From: a virus
Direction: 5' to 3' (one strand)
DNA: 22,307 nt
IMG/VR virus record: IMGVR_UViG_3300022890_001247
Span: 1-22,307 of that record
Part shown: in pieces, positions 2,050 to 22,307 of the stretch
How positions within the stretch are numbered: the first letter of the stretch is position 1
Layout of the letters: each line of letters begins with the position of its first letter
The notes under the pieces: generated by a model
Told to the model about the DNA's origin: nothing
The model's input: only the letters and a program-made list of their open reading frames with translations
Database searches by the model: none
Program-made: the position numbers and the translations under genes

Positions 2050-2706
2050 ATGCTACATAGAGACAAAGCACGTAAGATCCAGCAGGGGGTGAAAATGGGC
2101 CTCGATATGGGAACCTTCCTGGAAAAGGGGGGCATTACCGCCGCAGTGGGAGGCGTTTTCATCCTCGAAATGCGAGATGCCACTACCGGGGAAGTTCTGG
2201 AGTATTGGGAAAAGAAAAATCAAATCGTTTTGGATGCTGGCATTTTGGCTGCCCGACTTTTCAAAAACAGCACGGACCCAAGCCCGGCCCAGAACAACGG
2301 GCTGGTGATGCTGGGGGTGGGCACCGGGGCGACAGGCAACATCCTCTCACCCGACGCCCCGCAGACGGGGCAGCGAGAACTGAACGCCGAGATCGGACGG
2401 AAGGCTTTTGCCTCTACTCAGTTCAGGAATGCCAACGGGGTGGCGGTTTCCTACCCAACGAACGTCGTGGATTTCACTACGACCTTCGGGGAGGCCGAGG
2501 CGGTCGGGCCGTTGAACGAGATGGGCCTGATGAGCACGGCGTCATTGAACCCGCTCATCACGAACCCGATCCAGAACGGCCCGACTGACTATGACCCGAC
2601 GATTGATGTGACTGGCAAAGACCTGATGGCTAACTATTTAACCTTCAGTTGTCTTTCAAAGCCGTCGACTGCGGTGCTGACCATTACGTGGAGACTTTCC
2701 TTTTGA
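2050..2706 (+). CDS. Phage structural protein (218 aa), tail/fibre-associated type
   Basis: The protein starts with a short basic helix-like segment, then a Gly-rich stretch, then the pattern FILEMRDATTGEVLEYWEKK followed by NQIVLDAGILAARL. This arrangement (a strand pair, 'KNxIVxxAG', then a GVGTG loop and a late 'EMGLM' strand) recurs in small phage virion proteins, usually annotated as hypothetical or tail proteins. It ends TAVLTITWRLSF, a natural-looking terminal strand, so I see no sign that the neighbouring nuclease truncated it. Two starts are possible: ATG 2050, with TAAGGAG just upstream, or ATG 2095, with AGGGGGTG upstream. I keep 2050 because its extension reads as a coherent basic helix, but 2095 is a real alternative. 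Its stop codon overlaps the next start in TGATG, indicating translational coupling to the nuclease gene. Confidence 0.8.
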   Translation: MLHRDKARKIQQGVKMGLDMGTFLEKGGITAAVGGVFILEMRDATTGEVLEYWEKKNQIVLDAGILAARLFKNSTDPSPAQNNGLVMLGVGTGATGNILSPDAPQTGQRELNAEIGRKAFASTQFRNANGVAVSYPTNVVDFTTTFGEAEAVGPLNEMGLMSTASLNPLITNPIQNGPTDYDPTIDVTGKDLMANYLTFSCLSKPSTAVLTITWRLSF

Positions 2707-2708
2707 TG
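2704..2708 (+). promoter_or_regulatory. TGATG stop-start overlap (translational coupling)
   Basis: The TGA of the 218-residue gene (2704-2706) shares its A with the ATG of the nuclease gene (2706-2708). The bases just upstream contain no good Shine-Dalgarno sequence, so the nuclease is probably translated by re-initiation of ribosomes ending the structural gene. This overlap is why I reject the longer in-frame start at 2649. Confidence 0.65.
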
Positions 2709-3713
2709 TCCGAACCAACAATGAGCTTAGAGAATGTAGACATGGTGATTTGTAAGAACCATCTCCATGTTGTGGTGTGTCAAATCTGTGGTGTAGAACG
2801 ACGACGGTTGGGGGCACACATCAAAGCGACACATGCTATGACAGTTGAGGAATACAAAACGAAATATCCAGATGCCTTAACAGAGGTGCCGGGTTCCCGA
2901 AAACGATCTCCTGAATGTCGAGCCAAACAATCTGTAGCAGCATTCAAACGATGGGCAAACCCTGATGAACGGGCTGCACAATCAGTTCGGCTTAAAAAGG
3001 CCGCTCCCTGGAAGGGTAAAAAATTCACCGATGAGCACAAACGTGCTATCAGTAGGGGTGGCCGTGGCATTTCGCACAAGTTGACTGATGAGTCGAGACA
3101 AGCGCAGGGGGACCGGGGTCGGCGTGTGCTGTCTGAGATCCGTAATGATCCACAGGTCCGTTTGAAGATAGGAGCAGCAACCAGGCGTCGGTTCCAACAG
3201 GGGGAACAATTTGGGTTTCGGAGTCCCGGCGTTTTTGATAGGATTATGGCCTCAAAGGTACGAAACGGAACTGTGGTGTCCGCAAACGCTGGACGGGGTA
3301 TTACTGGCTTCCGTGTTGGTATTCCACACTATTGTCGAAGTACCCTTGAAGCCAATTTCGCTAGAGTACTTATATCGGAGAACATCCCATATGAGTACGA
3401 GCCAAAGGTGTTCCTTTTGCCTAACGGTCAGCGATGGACACCTGATTTCCTGCTGGCTCGGTCGTTGGGAAACCTTGTACCTGCGGGTTGGGTCGAACTG
3501 AAGGGGTGGCGAAATAAGGATGGGACTTTGCCCGGTGCTGCGGACAGCAAAATCAAAGCTTTTGAATCTATGACGGGCGAACATATGACTGTAGTTACCC
3601 AGGATAGTACCCTGTGGGGCGTAATTGAGAAACGTTACGCTGGTAAGGGGGCCTGGGAAACTGGTCGCCGGAACAGACGGACCCATCCAGAAGTGTTCGG
3701 ACGGACAAAATAG
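2706..3713 (+). CDS. PD-(D/E)XK homing-type endonuclease with Ros/MucR-like zinc finger (335 aa)
   Basis: Probably a free-standing, site-specific DNA endonuclease that spreads by homing. Residues 25-43 form a C2H2 finger (C25-x2-C28-x9-H38-x4-H43) followed by TVEEYKTKYP, as in Ros/MucR-type DNA-binding domains. Residues 65-115 carry two short basic motifs (SPECRAKQSVAAFKRW and WKGKKFTDEHKRAIS) resembling NUMOD3 DNA-binding segments of homing enzymes. The C-terminal domain has the PD-(D/E)XK signature: E215 in RSTLEANFARVL, P246-D247 in TPDFLL, and E264-L-K266 in WVELKGW. All catalytic positions look intact. The gene is clearly more AT-rich than its neighbours (23 of 60 G+C in bases 2821-2880, counted by hand), suggesting transfer. 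It sits exactly between two structural genes, coupled by TGATG upstream, with its TAG inside the next gene's TAGGGG ribosome binding region. The target site is unknown, and no intron or interrupted gene is seen. Confidence 0.82.
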   Translation: MSEPTMSLENVDMVICKNHLHVVVCQICGVERRRLGAHIKATHAMTVEEYKTKYPDALTEVPGSRKRSPECRAKQSVAAFKRWANPDERAAQSVRLKKAAPWKGKKFTDEHKRAISRGGRGISHKLTDESRQAQGDRGRRVLSEIRNDPQVRLKIGAATRRRFQQGEQFGFRSPGVFDRIMASKVRNGTVVSANAGRGITGFRVGIPHYCRSTLEANFARVLISENIPYEYEPKVFLLPNGQRWTPDFLLARSLGNLVPAGWVELKGWRNKDGTLPGAADSKIKAFESMTGEHMTVVTQDSTLWGVIEKRYAGKGAWETGRRNRRTHPEVFGRTK

Positions 3714-11085: not shown

Positions 11086-12474
11086 ATGAAGGTTACCCGA
11101 ATACTCTTTTCCAAAAACCTCAATGCAGGTAAATTCACTGCCTTAGAGGAACAAGCGCACCGATTAGGGGAACTTCGTTCAGAAATATGGCAACGATTCG
11201 GATCTGTAAATGGGGTGGGAAAATCGGATAGGGAAATCCGGGACGAATGGCTGCAACAGAAGAAAGAGTTTGATGTTCCAGCCAACGCCTGGAAAGAAAC
11301 CCTAAGGGATACTGTTTCTGACATCAAGACCTCTAGGGAAGCAGCAAAGGTCAAAGCAAGAAAAGCGGTTTGCCGCCACACAACTGACGTTGCTGAAAGA
11401 AAGTGTCTGTATACGCTTCTTAAGTCAGATAATTGGACCACCGATCCTTATTTGACTCGTATCATGCGAAAGTACTGGAAGCGAGGACACAACCACACCC
11501 ATAATCAGATCATCGTTCGTACTGACAACTACAGGACTTTTGAACTCGACGGTAGCGTTTGGCTTAAGATACCAGGGTTAACACCACGAAAAAGGATCTC
11601 GATTCCCTTAGACACTAACGTACACCCAACAGGTACTCTCCGACTGATCCTTCGAGGTGGTAAGGTTGAGATCCATTATCAAATCGAGGTCAAAAAGGAA
11701 AACCGTCACGGAGACAAAACACTTGGGGTGGACAAAGGTTACACGGAAGTCCTTGTAGATTCTGACGGAGACCACCATGGGGAAGGATTGGGGAAACTGT
11801 TGTCCTCAGAGTCCGGTTACCTGAAGGTCAAATACCAACGACGAAACAAACTCAAGGCAATTGCTAGGAACAAGCCTCATAAAAGGGTGGACATCGAACG
11901 AAACAATCTTGGTCGAAAGAAACTTGATCGACGAGATCGGGTTGTAAAGGTTTGTGTTCGAGACAAGGTTTTCAAAGCTGCTCATGCTGTTGTTGATAAA
12001 GCAGCAGTAGTGGTTGCTGAGGATTTAACCTCACCTATTCCTTCGAAAAGATCTTATGGGAGGAATATGAACCGGCGACTTTCCGCTTGGACCAAGGGTG
12101 TCATTGCGGAGAGTCTTGATTCCGTATCTCAGCGTAGAGGTTCTACGCTTGCGCTCGTTAATTGTGCATATACATCGCAAGTGGATTCTCGTTATGGTGT
12201 TCTTCGTGGACGTCGTAAGGGGGATTCGTTTTACTGTTTTGATGGGGTTGTTTTGCACTCTGATGAGAATGCTGCACGAAACGTTTTGGCAAGACATTAC
12301 GACTTTGAGATAGGTCGTTGGACTCCGTACCGGAAAGTTCGGGGTATTTTGCTTGAGCGGACTAAATGCCATCGGTTGGGACTGCTCAACCTGGACACCA
12401 GTTGCAGACCGGAGGGTCTATCAACGGTGAGCGAATTACCTTTGCAAGGTAAGGGGCAATTATGCCATGCCTAA
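11086..12474 (+). CDS. tnpB: TnpB, RNA-guided RuvC nuclease of IS200/IS605 type (462 aa), no TnpA
   Basis: TnpB proteins are RuvC nucleases, ancestors of Cas12, guided by an RNA (omega RNA/reRNA) made from the element's right end. The three RuvC acidic residues are visible: D216 in LGVDKGYTEVL, E312 in VVVAEDLTSPI and D393 in HSDENAARNVL. The N-terminal part (MKVTRILFSKNLNAGKF, then WQRFGSVNGVGKSDREIRD) and the tail (PYRKVRGILLERT, then LNLDTSC and LSTVSELP) resemble a distinct TnpB group that I associate from memory with cyanobacterial elements. The zinc finger is degraded: in TSQVDSRYG both usual Cys are Asp and Tyr, and only C384 of the second pair remains. No TnpA transposase lies nearby, so the gene is stand-alone. 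Base composition is lower in GC (29 of 60 in 11281-11340) than in the structural genes. The Shine-Dalgarno is weak and distant (GGGGGGA at 11066-11072). The gene looks intact. Confidence 0.93.
   Translation: MKVTRILFSKNLNAGKFTALEEQAHRLGELRSEIWQRFGSVNGVGKSDREIRDEWLQQKKEFDVPANAWKETLRDTVSDIKTSREAAKVKARKAVCRHTTDVAERKCLYTLLKSDNWTTDPYLTRIMRKYWKRGHNHTHNQIIVRTDNYRTFELDGSVWLKIPGLTPRKRISIPLDTNVHPTGTLRLILRGGKVEIHYQIEVKKENRHGDKTLGVDKGYTEVLVDSDGDHHGEGLGKLLSSESGYLKVKYQRRNKLKAIARNKPHKRVDIERNNLGRKKLDRRDRVVKVCVRDKVFKAAHAVVDKAAVVVAEDLTSPIPSKRSYGRNMNRRLSAWTKGVIAESLDSVSQRRGSTLALVNCAYTSQVDSRYGVLRGRRKGDSFYCFDGVVLHSDENAARNVLARHYDFEIGRWTPYRKVRGILLERTKCHRLGLLNLDTSCRPEGLSTVSELPLQGKGQLCHA
12380..12470 (+). ncRNA. Candidate TnpB guide RNA (omega RNA/reRNA) scaffold at the 3' end of tnpB
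   Basis: In IS200/IS605-type elements the guide RNA scaffold overlaps the 3' end of tnpB and finishes at the right end, with the guide read from flanking DNA. Here two hairpins stand side by side: TTACCTT-TGC-AAGGTAA (12436-12452, perfect 7-base stem) and GGCA-ATTA-TGCC (12455-12466). Both lie within the last codons of tnpB. Boundaries are guesses. If the element ends near 12470, the guide would begin in the ribosome binding region of the next gene. Confidence 0.35.
12436..12466 (+). repeat. Tandem hairpins at the right end of the tnpB element
   Basis: A perfect inverted repeat of seven bases with a three-base loop (12436-12452) is followed two bases later by a four-base inverted repeat with a four-base loop (12455-12466). 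Subterminal hairpins are characteristic of IS200/IS605 ends. No poly-T follows, so this is not a standard intrinsic terminator. Confidence 0.55.
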
Positions 12475-17798: not shown

Positions 17799-18590
17799 AT
17801 GAGGGTACTCGTAGATCTTGGCAGCCACGTTGGAGGCGTCCCCGCTATCACACAGGTGGAGCGGGTTCCTGACGCTGGCGTTGGCGTGCCCATCAACGGG
17901 AAGTACGTCCTGCCCATCTTCCCAGGTGCGGAGTTCCCGATCACGGCGGACTCCTATGTGTTGGACGGGGGCGGAGACGTTGACGGTGAGGATGTTTCCA
18001 GCATCTCTTTCGCTCATCTTCTTGCGGCATATCCGCAGTTCGGGAACATCTACTTCAACCCGCTCCTTACGGCAGCCAACGTAGGGGAACTGGACCCGAC
18101 CCTGGCGTTCCATGATCCCATCCTCGGTGTGGATGTCACCCCCAGATATCAGTCAGGACGAGGTCCTGGGCTCAATGATGGGCAGATGCCTACACACACG
18201 GCGCTCCTCGGGCAAAACTTCCTTACGACCCCCGTCCGTCCTGGCCTCCTGATCTCGGACAACATCGACATCAGCCCCTATGCGGCGGCTGGTGCTGATG
18301 AGTTCATGGTCTACTGGAAGATTTTGGAGTTCAGCGTCACCGAGGACATCTGTGCTGATTTCGGTGTGTTGGCGGGACAGAACACTCCTGCCATCCGTAC
18401 CGTAGAGGAAACAGACCAGGAACCGACCGGGTTATCCTTTTATATTTCCCCAGATAATGGAATGCACTGGTGTGAAACAGGATTTTTGGAACCAGTGGCC
18501 TTCTGTGCGAAGACGACCGCTTTCCGGGTTGCCTTCCGCAGTTCCTCACTGGACAAGATTTACCTGGCGCACTTTGCAGTGCTGTTCTAA
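17799..18590 (+). CDS. Phage virion-type protein (263 aa), function unknown
   Basis: I do not recognise a named family. The protein lacks a signal peptide and membrane segments. The N-terminal half is Gly/Pro/Asp-rich and contains FAHLLAAYPQFGNIYFNPLL. The second half (from about residue 165) reads as alternating strands: EFMVYWKILEFSVTEDI, then GQNTPAIRTVEETDQEP, LSFYISPDNGMHW and a final strand KIYLAHFAVLF. This looks like a beta-sandwich, with the 'SPDNGxHW' loop typical of extracellular or virion beta domains. The gene begins three bases after a strong Shine-Dalgarno that overlaps the stop of the tailspike-like gene, and its stop TAA is part of the Shine-Dalgarno of the next gene. The tight linkage suggests it works with the tailspike-like protein, perhaps as a capping, attachment or accessory fibre protein. 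That role is inference from position only. Confidence 0.78.
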   Translation: MRVLVDLGSHVGGVPAITQVERVPDAGVGVPINGKYVLPIFPGAEFPITADSYVLDGGGDVDGEDVSSISFAHLLAAYPQFGNIYFNPLLTAANVGELDPTLAFHDPILGVDVTPRYQSGRGPGLNDGQMPTHTALLGQNFLTTPVRPGLLISDNIDISPYAAAGADEFMVYWKILEFSVTEDICADFGVLAGQNTPAIRTVEETDQEPTGLSFYISPDNGMHWCETGFLEPVAFCAKTTAFRVAFRSSSLDKIYLAHFAVLF

Positions 18591-18600
18591 GGAGATAGAG
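18588..18600 (+). promoter_or_regulatory. Stop codon fused to Shine-Dalgarno, deciding the start at 18601
   Basis: TAAGGAGATAGAG directly precedes ATG 18601. The TAA is the stop of the 263-residue gene and TAAGGAG is a strong Shine-Dalgarno. This favours 18601 over the longer in-frame ATG at 18457, which would overlap the previous gene by about 134 bases. Confidence 0.75.
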
Positions 18601-18876
18601 ATGCGGATCACAATGGACGACCTGGCCAACAGCACGAACCTGATCAGGGTTCTAGATGCTGAAGGTAACCAGATGGGCTGCTTGCACTGGGTGAACCTCG
18701 TAACCCATGAGTGCGGACAGGCTGTTTTGGGGGAGCCCCAGTTGATCCAGGCAGGAACGTCTGAGTTTCCTGTGTCCACTAATGAGCGCCGGGTCCTGAC
18801 CAATCCCGATGGTACTGTGAAGACGCAGGTCGTGAAGTACAGTCGGATCGAGATTACCGCCCGACAGGCACAGTAG
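18601..18876 (+). CDS. Small phage hypothetical protein (91 aa)
   Basis: This is a short soluble protein with no named family. After a short N-terminal segment, it reads LIRVLDAEGNQMGCLHWVNLVT and later RRVLTNPDGTVKTQVVKYSRIEI. This 'xDxxGNxxxxxxWVNxxT ... DGTVxxxVxxYxxIxI' strand pattern occurs in small hypothetical proteins of tailed phages near virion genes, as I recall them. The start is fixed by TAAGGAG. The gene lies between the 263-residue virion-type gene and the HNH nuclease, with a nine-base gap to the latter. Its composition matches the structural genes, so it probably belongs to the original operon. Function is unknown. Confidence 0.8.
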   Translation: MRITMDDLANSTNLIRVLDAEGNQMGCLHWVNLVTHECGQAVLGEPQLIQAGTSEFPVSTNERRVLTNPDGTVKTQVVKYSRIEITARQAQ

Positions 18877-18885
18877 GGGTAGTGC

Positions 18886-19923
18886 ATGACTCAGGCATCC
18901 ACAGTTCAGACACTGCACAAATGTTCCAAATGCGGGGGGTCCGGTGAGTGCCGTCCGGGGTTTCAGCATTGCCGAGACTGTGAACGGAAATACGGACGTG
19001 AACGGTATCAAAAGCAGAAGGCTAGATGGGCAAAGTACAGGGAGGAGAATAGGGAGCACTACCGGGCACTGAACCTTGTGATCTCACGCAGGCGAAAAGC
19101 TGAGAGGCAGCAGGAGATTGATCGTTTGAAGAGTGTTCCCTGTAAGGATTGTGGTATGAGTTACCCTCCTTATGTGATGGATTTTGATCATCTGGATCCA
19201 AGCACAAAGTTGTGGAACATCAACCATCTCATACACAAAACGGCTGCTCCTTGGAGCAGGCTTTTGACTGAAATCAACAAGTGTGACGTGGTTTGTGTGC
19301 GTTGCCACAGACTAAGAACTTGGCACCCTCCCAAGCAGAGTAGCACACGCACCAGGTTGGTTCAGTCGTTGAAGGCTGTCCCTTGTATTGACTGTGGGGA
19401 TACATTCCACTACAGCCAGATGGACTTTGACCATGTCCGTGGGAAAAAGCTGTGCTGTGTTCCACATGCCGGTTCAAAGGCAGCCATTCGGACAGAGGCT
19501 GCCAAGTGCGACGTGGTTTGTGCCAACTGTCACCGGGAACGGACACAGCGGAAACTGATTAACCCCAGGCGGAACAACACGGGTTTGGAACTGAGATGGC
19601 AACGAAAAACGACGGGGCCACAAACGCTATTTGCTCCTGCCCCTCCTGTGCCGGAACGGCATAGAAGTTGGCATGCTCTGGTTGGTACAATGTCTGACGT
19701 AGCAGTAGCTAAAGAAGGGGGTGTGACCCCTGCTGCAGTTTGTGTTTACAGGAAAAAGATCGGGGTGCCCGTTTTTTGTCTGGACATTGCCCAACGGTAT
19801 CCATGGCATCCCCTTGCAGGTACGGTGTCTGATGGGGTGCTTGCCTCACAATGGGGCCTGACAAGAAAAACTGTTGGGAGACACCGGCAATTATACGGAC
19901 TTCCCGTTTATCGGAGGAAATAG
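18886..19923 (+). CDS. Duplicated-domain HNH endonuclease with two C-terminal HTH-like repeats (345 aa)
   Basis: Probably a free-standing homing-type DNA endonuclease. Residues 13-32 form a zinc-ribbon-like motif (C13-x2-C16, then C29-x2-C32), followed by a basic, probably helical stretch (about 33-82). Two HNH domains follow. Copy 1 (83-145) has C86-x2-C89, DFDH at 99-102, N111, and CDVVCVRCHR (133-142). Copy 2 (164-220) has C167-x2-C170, DFDH at 180-183 and CDVVCANCHR (208-217), but the position of N111 is C191. The C-terminus holds two ungapped 36-residue repeats (262-297 and 307-342) of the form WHxLxGTxSD...A...GxT...V...R...GxPV, resembling short helix-turn-helix DNA-recognition repeats. 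They are identical at 15 of 36 positions. HNH enzymes usually carry one domain, so the internal duplication is unusual. The gene is AT-rich (24 of 60 G+C in 19141-19200), and its end contains the ribosome binding site of the next gene. Confidence 0.87.
   Translation: MTQASTVQTLHKCSKCGGSGECRPGFQHCRDCERKYGRERYQKQKARWAKYREENREHYRALNLVISRRRKAERQQEIDRLKSVPCKDCGMSYPPYVMDFDHLDPSTKLWNINHLIHKTAAPWSRLLTEINKCDVVCVRCHRLRTWHPPKQSSTRTRLVQSLKAVPCIDCGDTFHYSQMDFDHVRGKKLCCVPHAGSKAAIRTEAAKCDVVCANCHRERTQRKLINPRRNNTGLELRWQRKTTGPQTLFAPAPPVPERHRSWHALVGTMSDVAVAKEGGVTPAAVCVYRKKIGVPVFCLDIAQRYPWHPLAGTVSDGVLASQWGLTRKTVGRHRQLYGLPVYRRK
19132..19320 (+). repeat. HNH copy 1 of an internal gene duplication
   Basis: Encodes residues 83-145. 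It matches the copy at 19375-19545 in protein pattern and partly in DNA: the 13-mer GACGTGGTTTGTG occurs at 19285-19297 here and at 19510-19522 in copy 2. Confidence 0.75.
19375..19545 (+). repeat. HNH copy 2 of an internal gene duplication
   Basis: Encodes residues 164-220. It keeps the zinc-binding Cys and the DFDH motif but has a shorter central loop (MDFDH to CDVVC) and Cys in place of the Asn expected in the middle of the fold. Confidence 0.75.
19669..19776 (+). repeat. HTH-like recognition repeat 1
   Basis: Encodes residues 262-297, WHALVGTMSD through GVPVF. It aligns without gaps to the repeat at 19804-19911. Confidence 0.7.
19804..19911 (+). repeat. HTH-like recognition repeat 2
   Basis: Encodes residues 307-342, WHPLAGTVSD through GLPVY. 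The two repeats likely read adjacent half-sites or segments of the nuclease target. Confidence 0.7.
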
Positions 19924-19924
19924 A
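19912..19924 (+). promoter_or_regulatory. Shine-Dalgarno of the gene at 19925 inside the end of the HNH gene
   Basis: CGGAGGAAATAGA (19912-19924) includes GGAGG seven bases before ATG 19925. It lies within the last codons of the HNH gene, whose TAG (19921-19923) ends one base before the start. Confidence 0.7.
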
Positions 19925-22307
19925 ATGGCTAATAAGGACTATGGCAGCGGGGTTTCCCGGACACTGGATGCTTACAGGCGGCAGTTCCGGCATGTCGTTT
20001 GGCAGAAAGGTCGCCCCCCACTCGATTCTGAGTTATCGCTTCAGGACGACATTTCCTCCGAGATGTCTAAGGAACTTGTCAGCACGATGCTCCCTTCTGG
20101 GTTTTTCATGGACCCGACCAGGACTGTGCAGGACTACCAGACGGATCCCCTGTGGGCAAACCAGATTAAGCTGGGCAACCCTCGGGTACCCTTTGGTTCC
20201 GGCGAGGCTGCGGAGCAGGATCCGGTTCTGTGGGCGAACGTCAATGGCTGGGTCATTCCTGTTTGTGGGTCCACCACGGTCGAGGGTGACCTTGCCAACA
20301 TCATCAAGTTGTATCCGCCGCCCGAAAGTGACACACGGATAGACTTCATTTTCCTTGAGGCATGGGCCACTCGGGTAGACGCCAACCCTTCCACGGTGAA
20401 CAAGCCATCCGCTTCTACCATCTGGAAGTTCGGAAACACCAAGTACGGCGGCACCAATCTGGCTGACGATCTTGAGGATCCCACCATCGGTTACGAAACC
20501 ACGGCTCGGGTCCAGATCCAGTACAGGCTCAGGGTTCACGGACAGGGCACCGGCCTCGGGGCTTCGGTGGCACTGGACGTTTATCCCGAGGGTTTGGATG
20601 ACCCCAACGTGCTCGGACAGGGCACGGCAGCCCTTCCGGTCGGTGGTGACAACTTCGTCAATATGCGTGAGGCGCTGGGTGACCCCAGCCTCTGGCGTGC
20701 AGGTTCAGGGGATCCTAACAACTCTCTCGGCACGATCGATGGCTACACCTATGCTGTCCCGGTCTGTGCCATCTTCCGCCGTTGCTCCAACGTCTATATG
20801 GCGGTCAACACGGCAGGTAATCCGAACCACAACGGTGCGTTCAACAGGACGCCCAGCAGCAAGTTCCTCCCGGACCCCCTCTTGGGAGCACGAGTGCTGT
20901 TGCAGGCAACCCTCACCAACGACCTGTCCCCGACTGACGCTTTGGACCCCGCCGGGGCCGATGCGATGGTGAACGTCACGAACTTGAACGGTTGTGGCTT
21001 GGAGGACACGCACCACGTCCTTACCAGCGTCTTCCTGGTGCTGGAGAACGAGATCGTTGGGATTAGCGCACTGGACCTTGTAGCCGGTACGATCACCATC
21101 CCTGCCGGTGGTAGGGGTCGGTACGGAACGGCGGCTGTGGGGCACGCAGCGGCCACTGAGGTAGGGTTTTTCAACACCCGCCCGGATGGGTTGTACTCGG
21201 ACCAGGTCGCTGCCCAGGACATTATGGACATGCGCCATGCTGTCAATCCCAACGACTGGGACTTTGGCAGGCTCCTGGAGCACAACGTCGCTGCACTCCT
21301 CAAGGGAGACTTGCACGCCACCTGGAAACACGCTGCGGCAGGCAACACCCAGGGGCCTGAAACCCACGAGATCACCTACCTCTATGGGGACGGTTCCATT
21401 GCTGTTCCGAACCACACTGAGGCTGCGGATGGCCCGGACGGGATCCGTACCATCTGGTCGGACGCAGCGACCATCCAGCCGGACGTGACGGTCCTTCTGA
21501 ATAACGAGGCGATCCAGGACGGCGGGAACGTCGGACTGACCAACGCCAACACCTTCACCTCCGGGGCGGGTTTCGCCTGGGACGTGGGAGCCGGGTTCTA
21601 CCCCAGTGGCTTCATGAATGTGTTCGGACAGCCTGCGACCGATGTCTTCTGTAACGGCACCACCCTCTTGCTCTTTACAGGTGGACTGGCCGGATCGGGA
21701 GGTGCTCGGGCAACCTTCAGGGACGGGGACACCAGGGCTGTGCGGGCCGTGACCCCCAAGGAGTACTGGAAGTCAGGGTACCCCATTGTGGACCCGGCCA
21801 ACGGCAATCAGCACCCAGTCACGTTGCGTTTCCTGGAGGAGCGGGCCAACGAACAGCCTCCGACCGCTCTCAGCAGCGACGCACGGAAGGCTCGTCACGT
21901 TGGACCCTTCTCCCCCTACCGGGAAACGAACTTCGAGAAGCCCTTCATCGTACTCGGTGGGATGTTGCGCCCGGAGATGCGTATCACGGCGGTGGCCACT
22001 GCGGATATGACAACGGTGGGTACCGTTAGTACCATCGACGTGGGTATCGATTTTGATGCGCTGGGTGATTACTACTCCTTGGACGCTGCTGGAAACATCG
22101 CCAACGATCCGACTGCTGTTTCCAGTCCTCTGCTTCGGGGCAAACGCACTCTCTACGGGATGCTTACGGCGGATGGGACGGACTACTCGGGGTACTCTTC
22201 CGAGGTCTACGTTGTCATTTATGGTGACAACGCCAGCAACCAGAACAATGGTTGCTGGAAGGTGATTGGTGCTGGAACGGTGCCCTACACGGCGTCCACA
22301 CCCTCCG
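19925..22307 (+). CDS. Large phage virion structural protein, 3'-incomplete (794+ aa), paralogue of the gene at 3725
   Basis: The frame is open from ATG 19925 to the right edge (794 codons and one base), so the C-terminus lies outside the window. It has the same landmarks, in the same order, as the 1204-residue protein at 3725-7339: VVWQKGRPPLDSEL (24-37), RIDFIFLEAW (138-147), VQIQYRLR (196-203) and GYTYAVPVCAIFRR (from 273). Later PDGLYSDQVAAQDIMDMRHA corresponds to YCDVIDPTRILDLRRHI in that protein. The pair is therefore paralogous, and both are probably tail, baseplate or fibre components. The copy here lacks the extra module found at residues 198-315 of the other protein. The start has a strong GGAGG site. 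Further on, residues 480-700 are rich in Gly, Asn and Thr with no motif I can name. Composition is GC-rich like the other structural genes, in contrast to the preceding HNH gene. Confidence 0.87.
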   Translation, partial: MANKDYGSGVSRTLDAYRRQFRHVVWQKGRPPLDSELSLQDDISSEMSKELVSTMLPSGFFMDPTRTVQDYQTDPLWANQIKLGNPRVPFGSGEAAEQDPVLWANVNGWVIPVCGSTTVEGDLANIIKLYPPPESDTRIDFIFLEAWATRVDANPSTVNKPSASTIWKFGNTKYGGTNLADDLEDPTIGYETTARVQIQYRLRVHGQGTGLGASVALDVYPEGLDDPNVLGQGTAALPVGGDNFVNMREALGDPSLWRAGSGDPNNSLGTIDGYTYAVPVCAIFRRCSNVYMAVNTAGNPNHNGAFNRTPSSKFLPDPLLGARVLLQATLTNDLSPTDALDPAGADAMVNVTNLNGCGLEDTHHVLTSVFLVLENEIVGISALDLVAGTITIPAGGRGRYGTAAVGHAAATEVGFFNTRPDGLYSDQVAAQDIMDMRHAVNPNDWDFGRLLEHNVAALLKGDLHATWKHAAAGNTQGPETHEITYLYGDGSIAVPNHTEAADGPDGIRTIWSDAATIQPDVTVLLNNEAIQDGGNVGLTNANTFTSGAGFAWDVGAGFYPSGFMNVFGQPATDVFCNGTTLLLFTGGLAGSGGARATFRDGDTRAVRAVTPKEYWKSGYPIVDPANGNQHPVTLRFLEERANEQPPTALSSDARKARHVGPFSPYRETNFEKPFIVLGGMLRPEMRITAVATADMTTVGTVSTIDVGIDFDALGDYYSLDAAGNIANDPTAVSSPLLRGKRTLYGMLTADGTDYSGYSSEVYVVIYGDNASNQNNGCWKVIGAGTVPYTASTPS

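Follow-up and report, generated by a model that had tools for sequence, protein, structure and literature searches.

Acting alone, a homing enzyme with one HNH domain does not usually break both DNA strands, and monomeric LAGLIDADG enzymes such as I-SceI and I-DmoI carry two pseudo-symmetric catalytic halves in one chain, with which an asymmetric site can be read. The fold and active site of the LAGLIDADG enzymes are unrelated to those of the protein described here, and the analogy is one of architecture only. Single-domain HNH homing enzymes are elongated, with DNA-binding modules tethered to one nuclease domain (PMC3943268). The protein encoded at 18886 to 19923 (+) of the window (the whole 22,307-nucleotide stretch of DNA that was analysed) is like the I-HmuI type in its HNH domain tethered to DNA-binding modules and in its probable phage homing, but the I-HmuI type is elongated with one nuclease domain (PMC3943268), whereas the window protein has two HNH units and two HTH repeats per chain. 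The single-HNH phage endonucleases of PHROG 3106 and 2255 (StarPlatinum gp106 and Myrna gp144) share with it the HNH unit CxxC...MDFDH...CxxCH and often a zinc-ribbon and helix N terminus. However, they have one HNH unit instead of two, and their places in named phages are at most 444 nt long among the matches listed. The consulted part of another source (PMC10448857) describes phage homing endonuclease genes (HEGs) at gene borders with a nuclease at one end and one or more, sometimes repeated, DNA-binding domains at the other. As at our locus, these genes lie beside essential phage genes, HEG content is variable, and the repeated DNA-binding modules are exchangeable. In contrast, that part describes no duplicated nuclease domain and no HTH repeat family common to HNH and LAGLIDADG enzymes. 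A literature search on tandem, double or duplicated HNH found "two HNH domains" only in papers on CBASS.

The identity of the window gene as a homing endonuclease gene is well supported by comparison with its relatives. We consider it highly probable that it is a free-standing homing gene of an uncultured large tailed phage, with two active HNH units that nick opposite strands. All records compared are metagenomic contigs. The compared parts of the window match a 109 kb contig at 100% identity and in the same order, and the window most likely belongs to the genome of the virus represented by that contig.

Architecture of the double-HNH protein

The gene is an intact open frame of 345 codons. 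Its product begins with a CxxC..CxxC motif (residues 11 to 34, 18916 to 18987; C13, C16, C30 and C33) that recurs in several relatives, followed by two long helices, HNH units 1 and 2, a linker and two HTH repeats. A sequence-only reading of this frame had claimed two HNH units, two 36-residue recognition repeats and an N-terminal zinc ribbon. Both duplications were borne out by alignment: the HNH units are 47% identical over 66 columns (E 1e-16), and the repeats match at 15 of 36 positions without gaps (E 2e-10). As for the ribbon, the four cysteines are in place and probably form one. HNH unit 1 (residues 80 to 145, 19123 to 19320) carries C86, C89, D101, H102, C137, C140 and H141, and unit 2 (residues 161 to 220, 19366 to 19545) carries C167, C170, D182, H183, C212, C215 and H216. 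HTH repeat 1 (WHALVGTMSD...) extends from W262 to F297 (19669 to 19776) and repeat 2 (WHPLAGTVSD...) from W307 to Y342 (19804 to 19911).

An AlphaFold2 model calculated with 30 aligned sequences had a mean pLDDT of 87 and a pTM of 0.59; an earlier model with too few aligned rows had left HTH 2 unresolved. In agreement with the proposed double build, it contains two confident beta-beta-alpha units, at 98-102/133-137/138-144 and 179-183/208-212/213-223 (pLDDT blocks of about 94 to 98), and two HTH units with helices at 271-278/282-292 and 316-322/327-337 (about 76 to 95). A helical linker (residues 30 to 82, 18973 to 19131) leads into unit 1, and a linker of low confidence (residues 228 to 258, 19567 to 19659) separates unit 2 from the repeats. 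Because the pTM is 0.59, the relative placement of the domains is unreliable, and the model does not bear on the pseudo-twofold arrangement on DNA that the one-chain pseudo-dimer suggested by the sequence-only reading would have. The two beta-beta-alpha units with conserved H102/H141 and H183/H216 identify an HNH nuclease, and the union of nuclease domain and DNA-binding modules in one protein is that of a homing endonuclease.

The open frame matched the HNH families PHROG 3106 (E 1.8e-37, covering unit 1) and PHROG 2255 (E 5.6e-36). Pfam and NCBIfam gave only below-threshold noise, with no Pfam HNH model over threshold, so the HNH assignment rests on PHROGs and motifs. Sequence and fold searches of the PDB found no significant match to a solved structure, and no LAGLIDADG motif or profile matched the protein. 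Rfam at the gathering threshold had no match in the whole window, with no known group I intron family detected. The best structural matches in a viral library were the giant-virus HNH proteins A0A8F8PKE7 (Clandestinovirus) and A0A7S7YEG4 (Medusavirus), over about 280 to 340 columns but at about 20% identity and high rmsd; this structural alignment suggests that they share the multi-unit build.

Two other genes bring the nuclease-type genes of the window to three, two of them homing genes. The product of 2649 to 3713 (+) is a putative second homing endonuclease with a MucR-like zinc finger, a NUMOD3-like stretch and a C-terminal PD-(D/E)xK-looking part (PHROG 314 homing endonuclease, 3e-5; PHROG 9019 Holliday resolvase, 1e-5). 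The gene at 11086 to 12474 (+), between two large genes, is TnpB/OrfB-like (Pfam Cas12f1-like TNB, 1.3e-6; PHROG 506); RuvC-like D, E and D motifs are visible, and the zinc-ribbon Cys pairs are apparently reduced.

Distribution and conservation of the two HNH units

The double arrangement, unfamiliar to the sequence-only reading, recurs in about 26 proteins in IMG/VR, with none among the best named-phage matches. A DNA pattern of two MDFDH motifs spaced by one CxxCH found 13 stretches over IMG/VR, to which profile scans contributed others. The motif-based collection came to 25 distinct double-HNH and 93 single-HNH ORFs; as double proteins served as queries, these counts should not be read as frequencies. 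An HMM found one further double (L111). Matches listed for the 50,697 named phage records were, in the rows inspected, too short to hold two HNH units. Two-piece matches in reference phages (e.g., Mandalore) were rejected as doubles, both query units aligning to one HNH. A 518-aa ORF of a 427 kb phage (G006; L094:190-1743, -) joins a DNA-modification domain (Pfam Mom, 3e-28) to two HNH units that have a Cys4 motif apiece, placing nuclease and modification in a single chain.

In a tree of HNH units (65 columns, of limited resolution), the second copies from five loci (the window, L003, L005, L056 and L059) group together with support of 99/92, separate from their first copies. This clustering indicates that the duplication predates these phages and that the double form is old and inherited; the remaining doubles may have arisen separately. 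The double form persists among proteins 32 to 54% identical to the window protein.

Across the 16 aligned double-HNH proteins, both copies keep every catalytic and zinc residue, and the set reaches down to about 32 to 37% identity with the catalytic His and Asp of each copy still in place. D101, H102, K108, E129, H141 and their copy-2 partners are also retained across the motif-collected ORFs, in which the search pattern fixed all four Cys, in part also D101, H102 and H141, and left K108, E129 and K132 free. The K108, E129 and K132 columns are retained in 24 to 25 of the 25 double proteins in each copy. The sequence-only reading had taken the Cys of copy 2 opposite N111 (C191) as a sign of an altered active site. 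We rejected this, because the column is not conserved (Asn in 30 of 93 single-HNH relatives, 5 of 25 first copies and 7 of 25 second copies), which makes Cys191 uninformative, and the catalytic residues are kept. When an HMM scan was run without the motif requirement, no double with a unit decayed by point changes turned up; a highly degenerate copy might nevertheless be missed by such a scan. The exceptions to intact doubles are one frameshifted double from a Chloroflexi MAG (L042) and one deletion allele (L108).

The strict conservation of both sites is consistent with two active sites in a single chain, and the window enzyme likely has two active blades. Two conserved HNH units in one chain would most simply place a nick on each strand. 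We regard it as unlikely, though the strongest of the competing explanations, that only one unit cuts while its partner is a zinc module for structure or DNA binding, in which case the enzyme would nick like I-HmuI. Single-HNH relatives are indeed the commoner form among those found (93 versus 25 by motif, with double queries), and phage HNH homing enzymes are described as carrying their DNA-binding modules on a single nuclease domain (PMC3943268). However, a purely structural copy would be expected to lose catalytic residues in some lineage, whereas the 16 aligned proteins, down to ~32 to 37% identity, retain the catalytic His and Asp as well as the zinc ligands in each copy.

The slot before the tail gene

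In relatives the insertion slot is bordered on the left by a structural-cluster gene of 263 aa (17799 to 18590, +) and on the right by a tail-like gene (19925 to 22307, +), whose open frame extends over 2125 codons in the 109 kb contig. The latter gene weakly resembles a tail protein PHROG, and its other weak matches are phage G gp420 and a gene of a Tunturiibacter phage that carries a tail fiber annotation; it looks essential. Only 1 bp separates the nuclease stop from the tail-gene ATG at 19925, and a GGAGG within the last nuclease codons (19913 to 19917, +) is a putative ribosome-binding site for that ATG. The homing reading proposed from the sequence proved right, as empty sites exist in relatives, but the empty site had been placed at the edges of the nuclease gene itself; the slot runs from 18590 to 19925 and therefore includes a small ORF of 91 aa (18601 to 18876, +). 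This ORF had no tblastn match in the compared relatives and may be cargo or a local gene. L084 has a 43-aa ORF in its slot to which it may bear a weak resemblance.

We scored a slot as empty when the 263-aa gene homologue ended at most 160 bp before the tail gene and as filled when it held a nuclease or HTH-repeat gene. Among 80 IMG/VR tail-gene relatives, 55 slots were empty, 8 were filled, 9 had other gaps and 8 lacked a recognisable upstream gene. Presence and absence at one site between homologous flanks, the mark of a homing gene, is seen in these 55 empty and 8 filled slots and in the pair L193/L195. The fillings comprise double HNH with HTH repeats (the window locus, L184, counted once, and L193), LAGLIDADG with three (L207) or one (L186) HTH repeats, HTH repeats alone (L223, with a zinc-finger start as in L207 and no LAGLIDADG part), endonuclease VII-like genes (L210 and L234) and GIY-YIG with NUMOD3 (L208). 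The census HMMs were built partly from slot proteins; independent evidence of family comes from matches to LAGLIDADG_3 (2e-6) and PHROG 4645 (6e-23) for the LAGLIDADG genes, GIY-YIG (1.2e-5) and NUMOD3 (7e-19) for the GIY-YIG gene, and endonuclease VII (4.6e-10) for the endonuclease VII-like gene.

No close relative of the window shows its slot empty, and the insertion was resolved in the filled L193, whose protein is 46% identical to the window protein, and the empty L195. Their right flanks are 94.4% identical over 4.4 kb and their left flanks 85% over 1.25 kb, with the insertion point after tail codon 6. In L193 the left sequence continues through the first six tail codons, ATGGCACTCGACCACGGA, which form the nuclease start (MALDHGQLRR...), and the end of the insert re-supplies the tail start as GTGGCGCTTGATCATGGA, with 5 changes in 18 nt at the start codon and third positions. 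At the flank divergence the chance of such change is about 0.003 to 0.012. This is only suggestive, but the altered codons could spare the L193 element its own cut; drift is the alternative. The GIY-YIG gene of L208 likewise opens by repeating the start of the tail gene that it precedes, and in L207 (LAGLIDADG), L210 (endonuclease VII-like) and L223 (HTH only) the ATG overlaps the stop of the upstream gene as TGATG.

In the proposed mechanism, recognition of the conserved tail-gene start, or of its junction with the preceding gene, would fall to the C-terminal HTH repeats, possibly aided by the zinc ribbon. HNH units 1 and 2, both active, would nick opposite strands to give a double-strand break, and repair of the cut empty allele from an occupied one would copy the nuclease gene in. 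We infer the cleavage, the strand cut by each HNH unit, the binding place and the occurrence of homing.

A non-selfish phage nuclease located here by chance, acting in host DNA breakdown, competitor exclusion or tail-gene regulation, is an improbable explanation. It would agree with the tight fit of the gene to the tail-gene start and with the existence of an HTH-repeat version without nuclease (L223), and a homing endonuclease encoded in a phage intron is reported to act in interference competition (PMC11620839). However, most relatives lack the gene, four unrelated nuclease families exchange in the one slot, and decayed alleles occur (L108/L267-L269). Competition and selfish homing are also compatible with each other. 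In the decayed alleles (L108 and two further contigs, L267-L269), which directly precede the tail gene, the zinc ribbon is fused to the middle of HNH unit 2 and unit 1 is gone, as expected for a homing gene past its useful life. Such deletion and frameshift alleles (L108, L042) might suggest that the window gene too is a non-functional remnant retained by chance, but this is very improbable, since its ORF is intact with all conserved residues present and the double form is maintained across proteins 32 to 54% identical to it.

Double-HNH genes also precede tail-gene paralogues in G002, G003, G004, G007, G008 and G010, and they stand at other structural-cluster junctions in G006, G009, G011-G013 and L270. 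In L100 (G007:226500-234500), two different double-HNH genes lie one on each side of one tail paralogue. A further homing-like ORF, NUMOD3-like by eye, is found at L249:1700-2215. In L101, L102 and L098 (G011-G013), double-HNH genes are inserted next to a 185-aa "RDCVVFFKGD..." gene that occurs as tandem paralogues; to judge from these sequences, the paralogues are a second preferred insertion neighbourhood.

HTH repeats as proposed targeting modules

The WHxLxGTMxD motif of the repeats was confirmed at only 12 places across the whole of IMG/VR. Each of them falls in a double-HNH, HNH-remnant, LAGLIDADG or HTH-only gene, and most adjoin a member of this tail-gene family. The repeats of the window protein and of the LAGLIDADG enzymes are homologous (41 to 42% identity over about 94 residues, E about 2e-17). 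Passage of the two-repeat module in order between the window gene and its LAGLIDADG slot-mates is only suggested: sign-flip tests of order-preserving orthology with the window gave p values of 0.18 for L034 and 0.02 for L223, and window repeat 2 grouped with L34_r3/L223_r3 at 84/92 in the repeat tree, a node that is not starred.

Two related genes were seen. In a 618 kb phage, the gene at L223:2973-3500 (+) encodes 175 aa in the L207 layout with the LAGLIDADG part cleanly absent, joining the zinc-finger start to three HTH repeats. In the window's virus, L097:1533-2699 (+) (G001:107532-108698) is a 389-aa ORF composed for the most part of some eight HTH-type repeats akin to those at the C terminus of the window protein; no nuclease domain was recognised in it.

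We tentatively propose, as a possibility somewhat short of even, that the one-chain HNH pair breaks both strands at an asymmetric site and that the HTH repeats are a transferable address on which the cutter, HNH pair or LAGLIDADG, is swapped. HNH-pair and LAGLIDADG enzymes with a common repeat family would then compete for one tail-gene start.

The single-chain cutters, at 216 to 345 aa, are compact and could serve as tools. Known HNH homing enzymes join a single nuclease domain to DNA-binding modules. The recurrent double-HNH form, the natural empty and occupied pairs, the deletion alleles and the LAGLIDADG slot-mates with shared repeats offer a ready comparative set for asking how such enzymes gain double-strand cutting or new targets, and whether modules for targeting and for cutting are exchanged separately.
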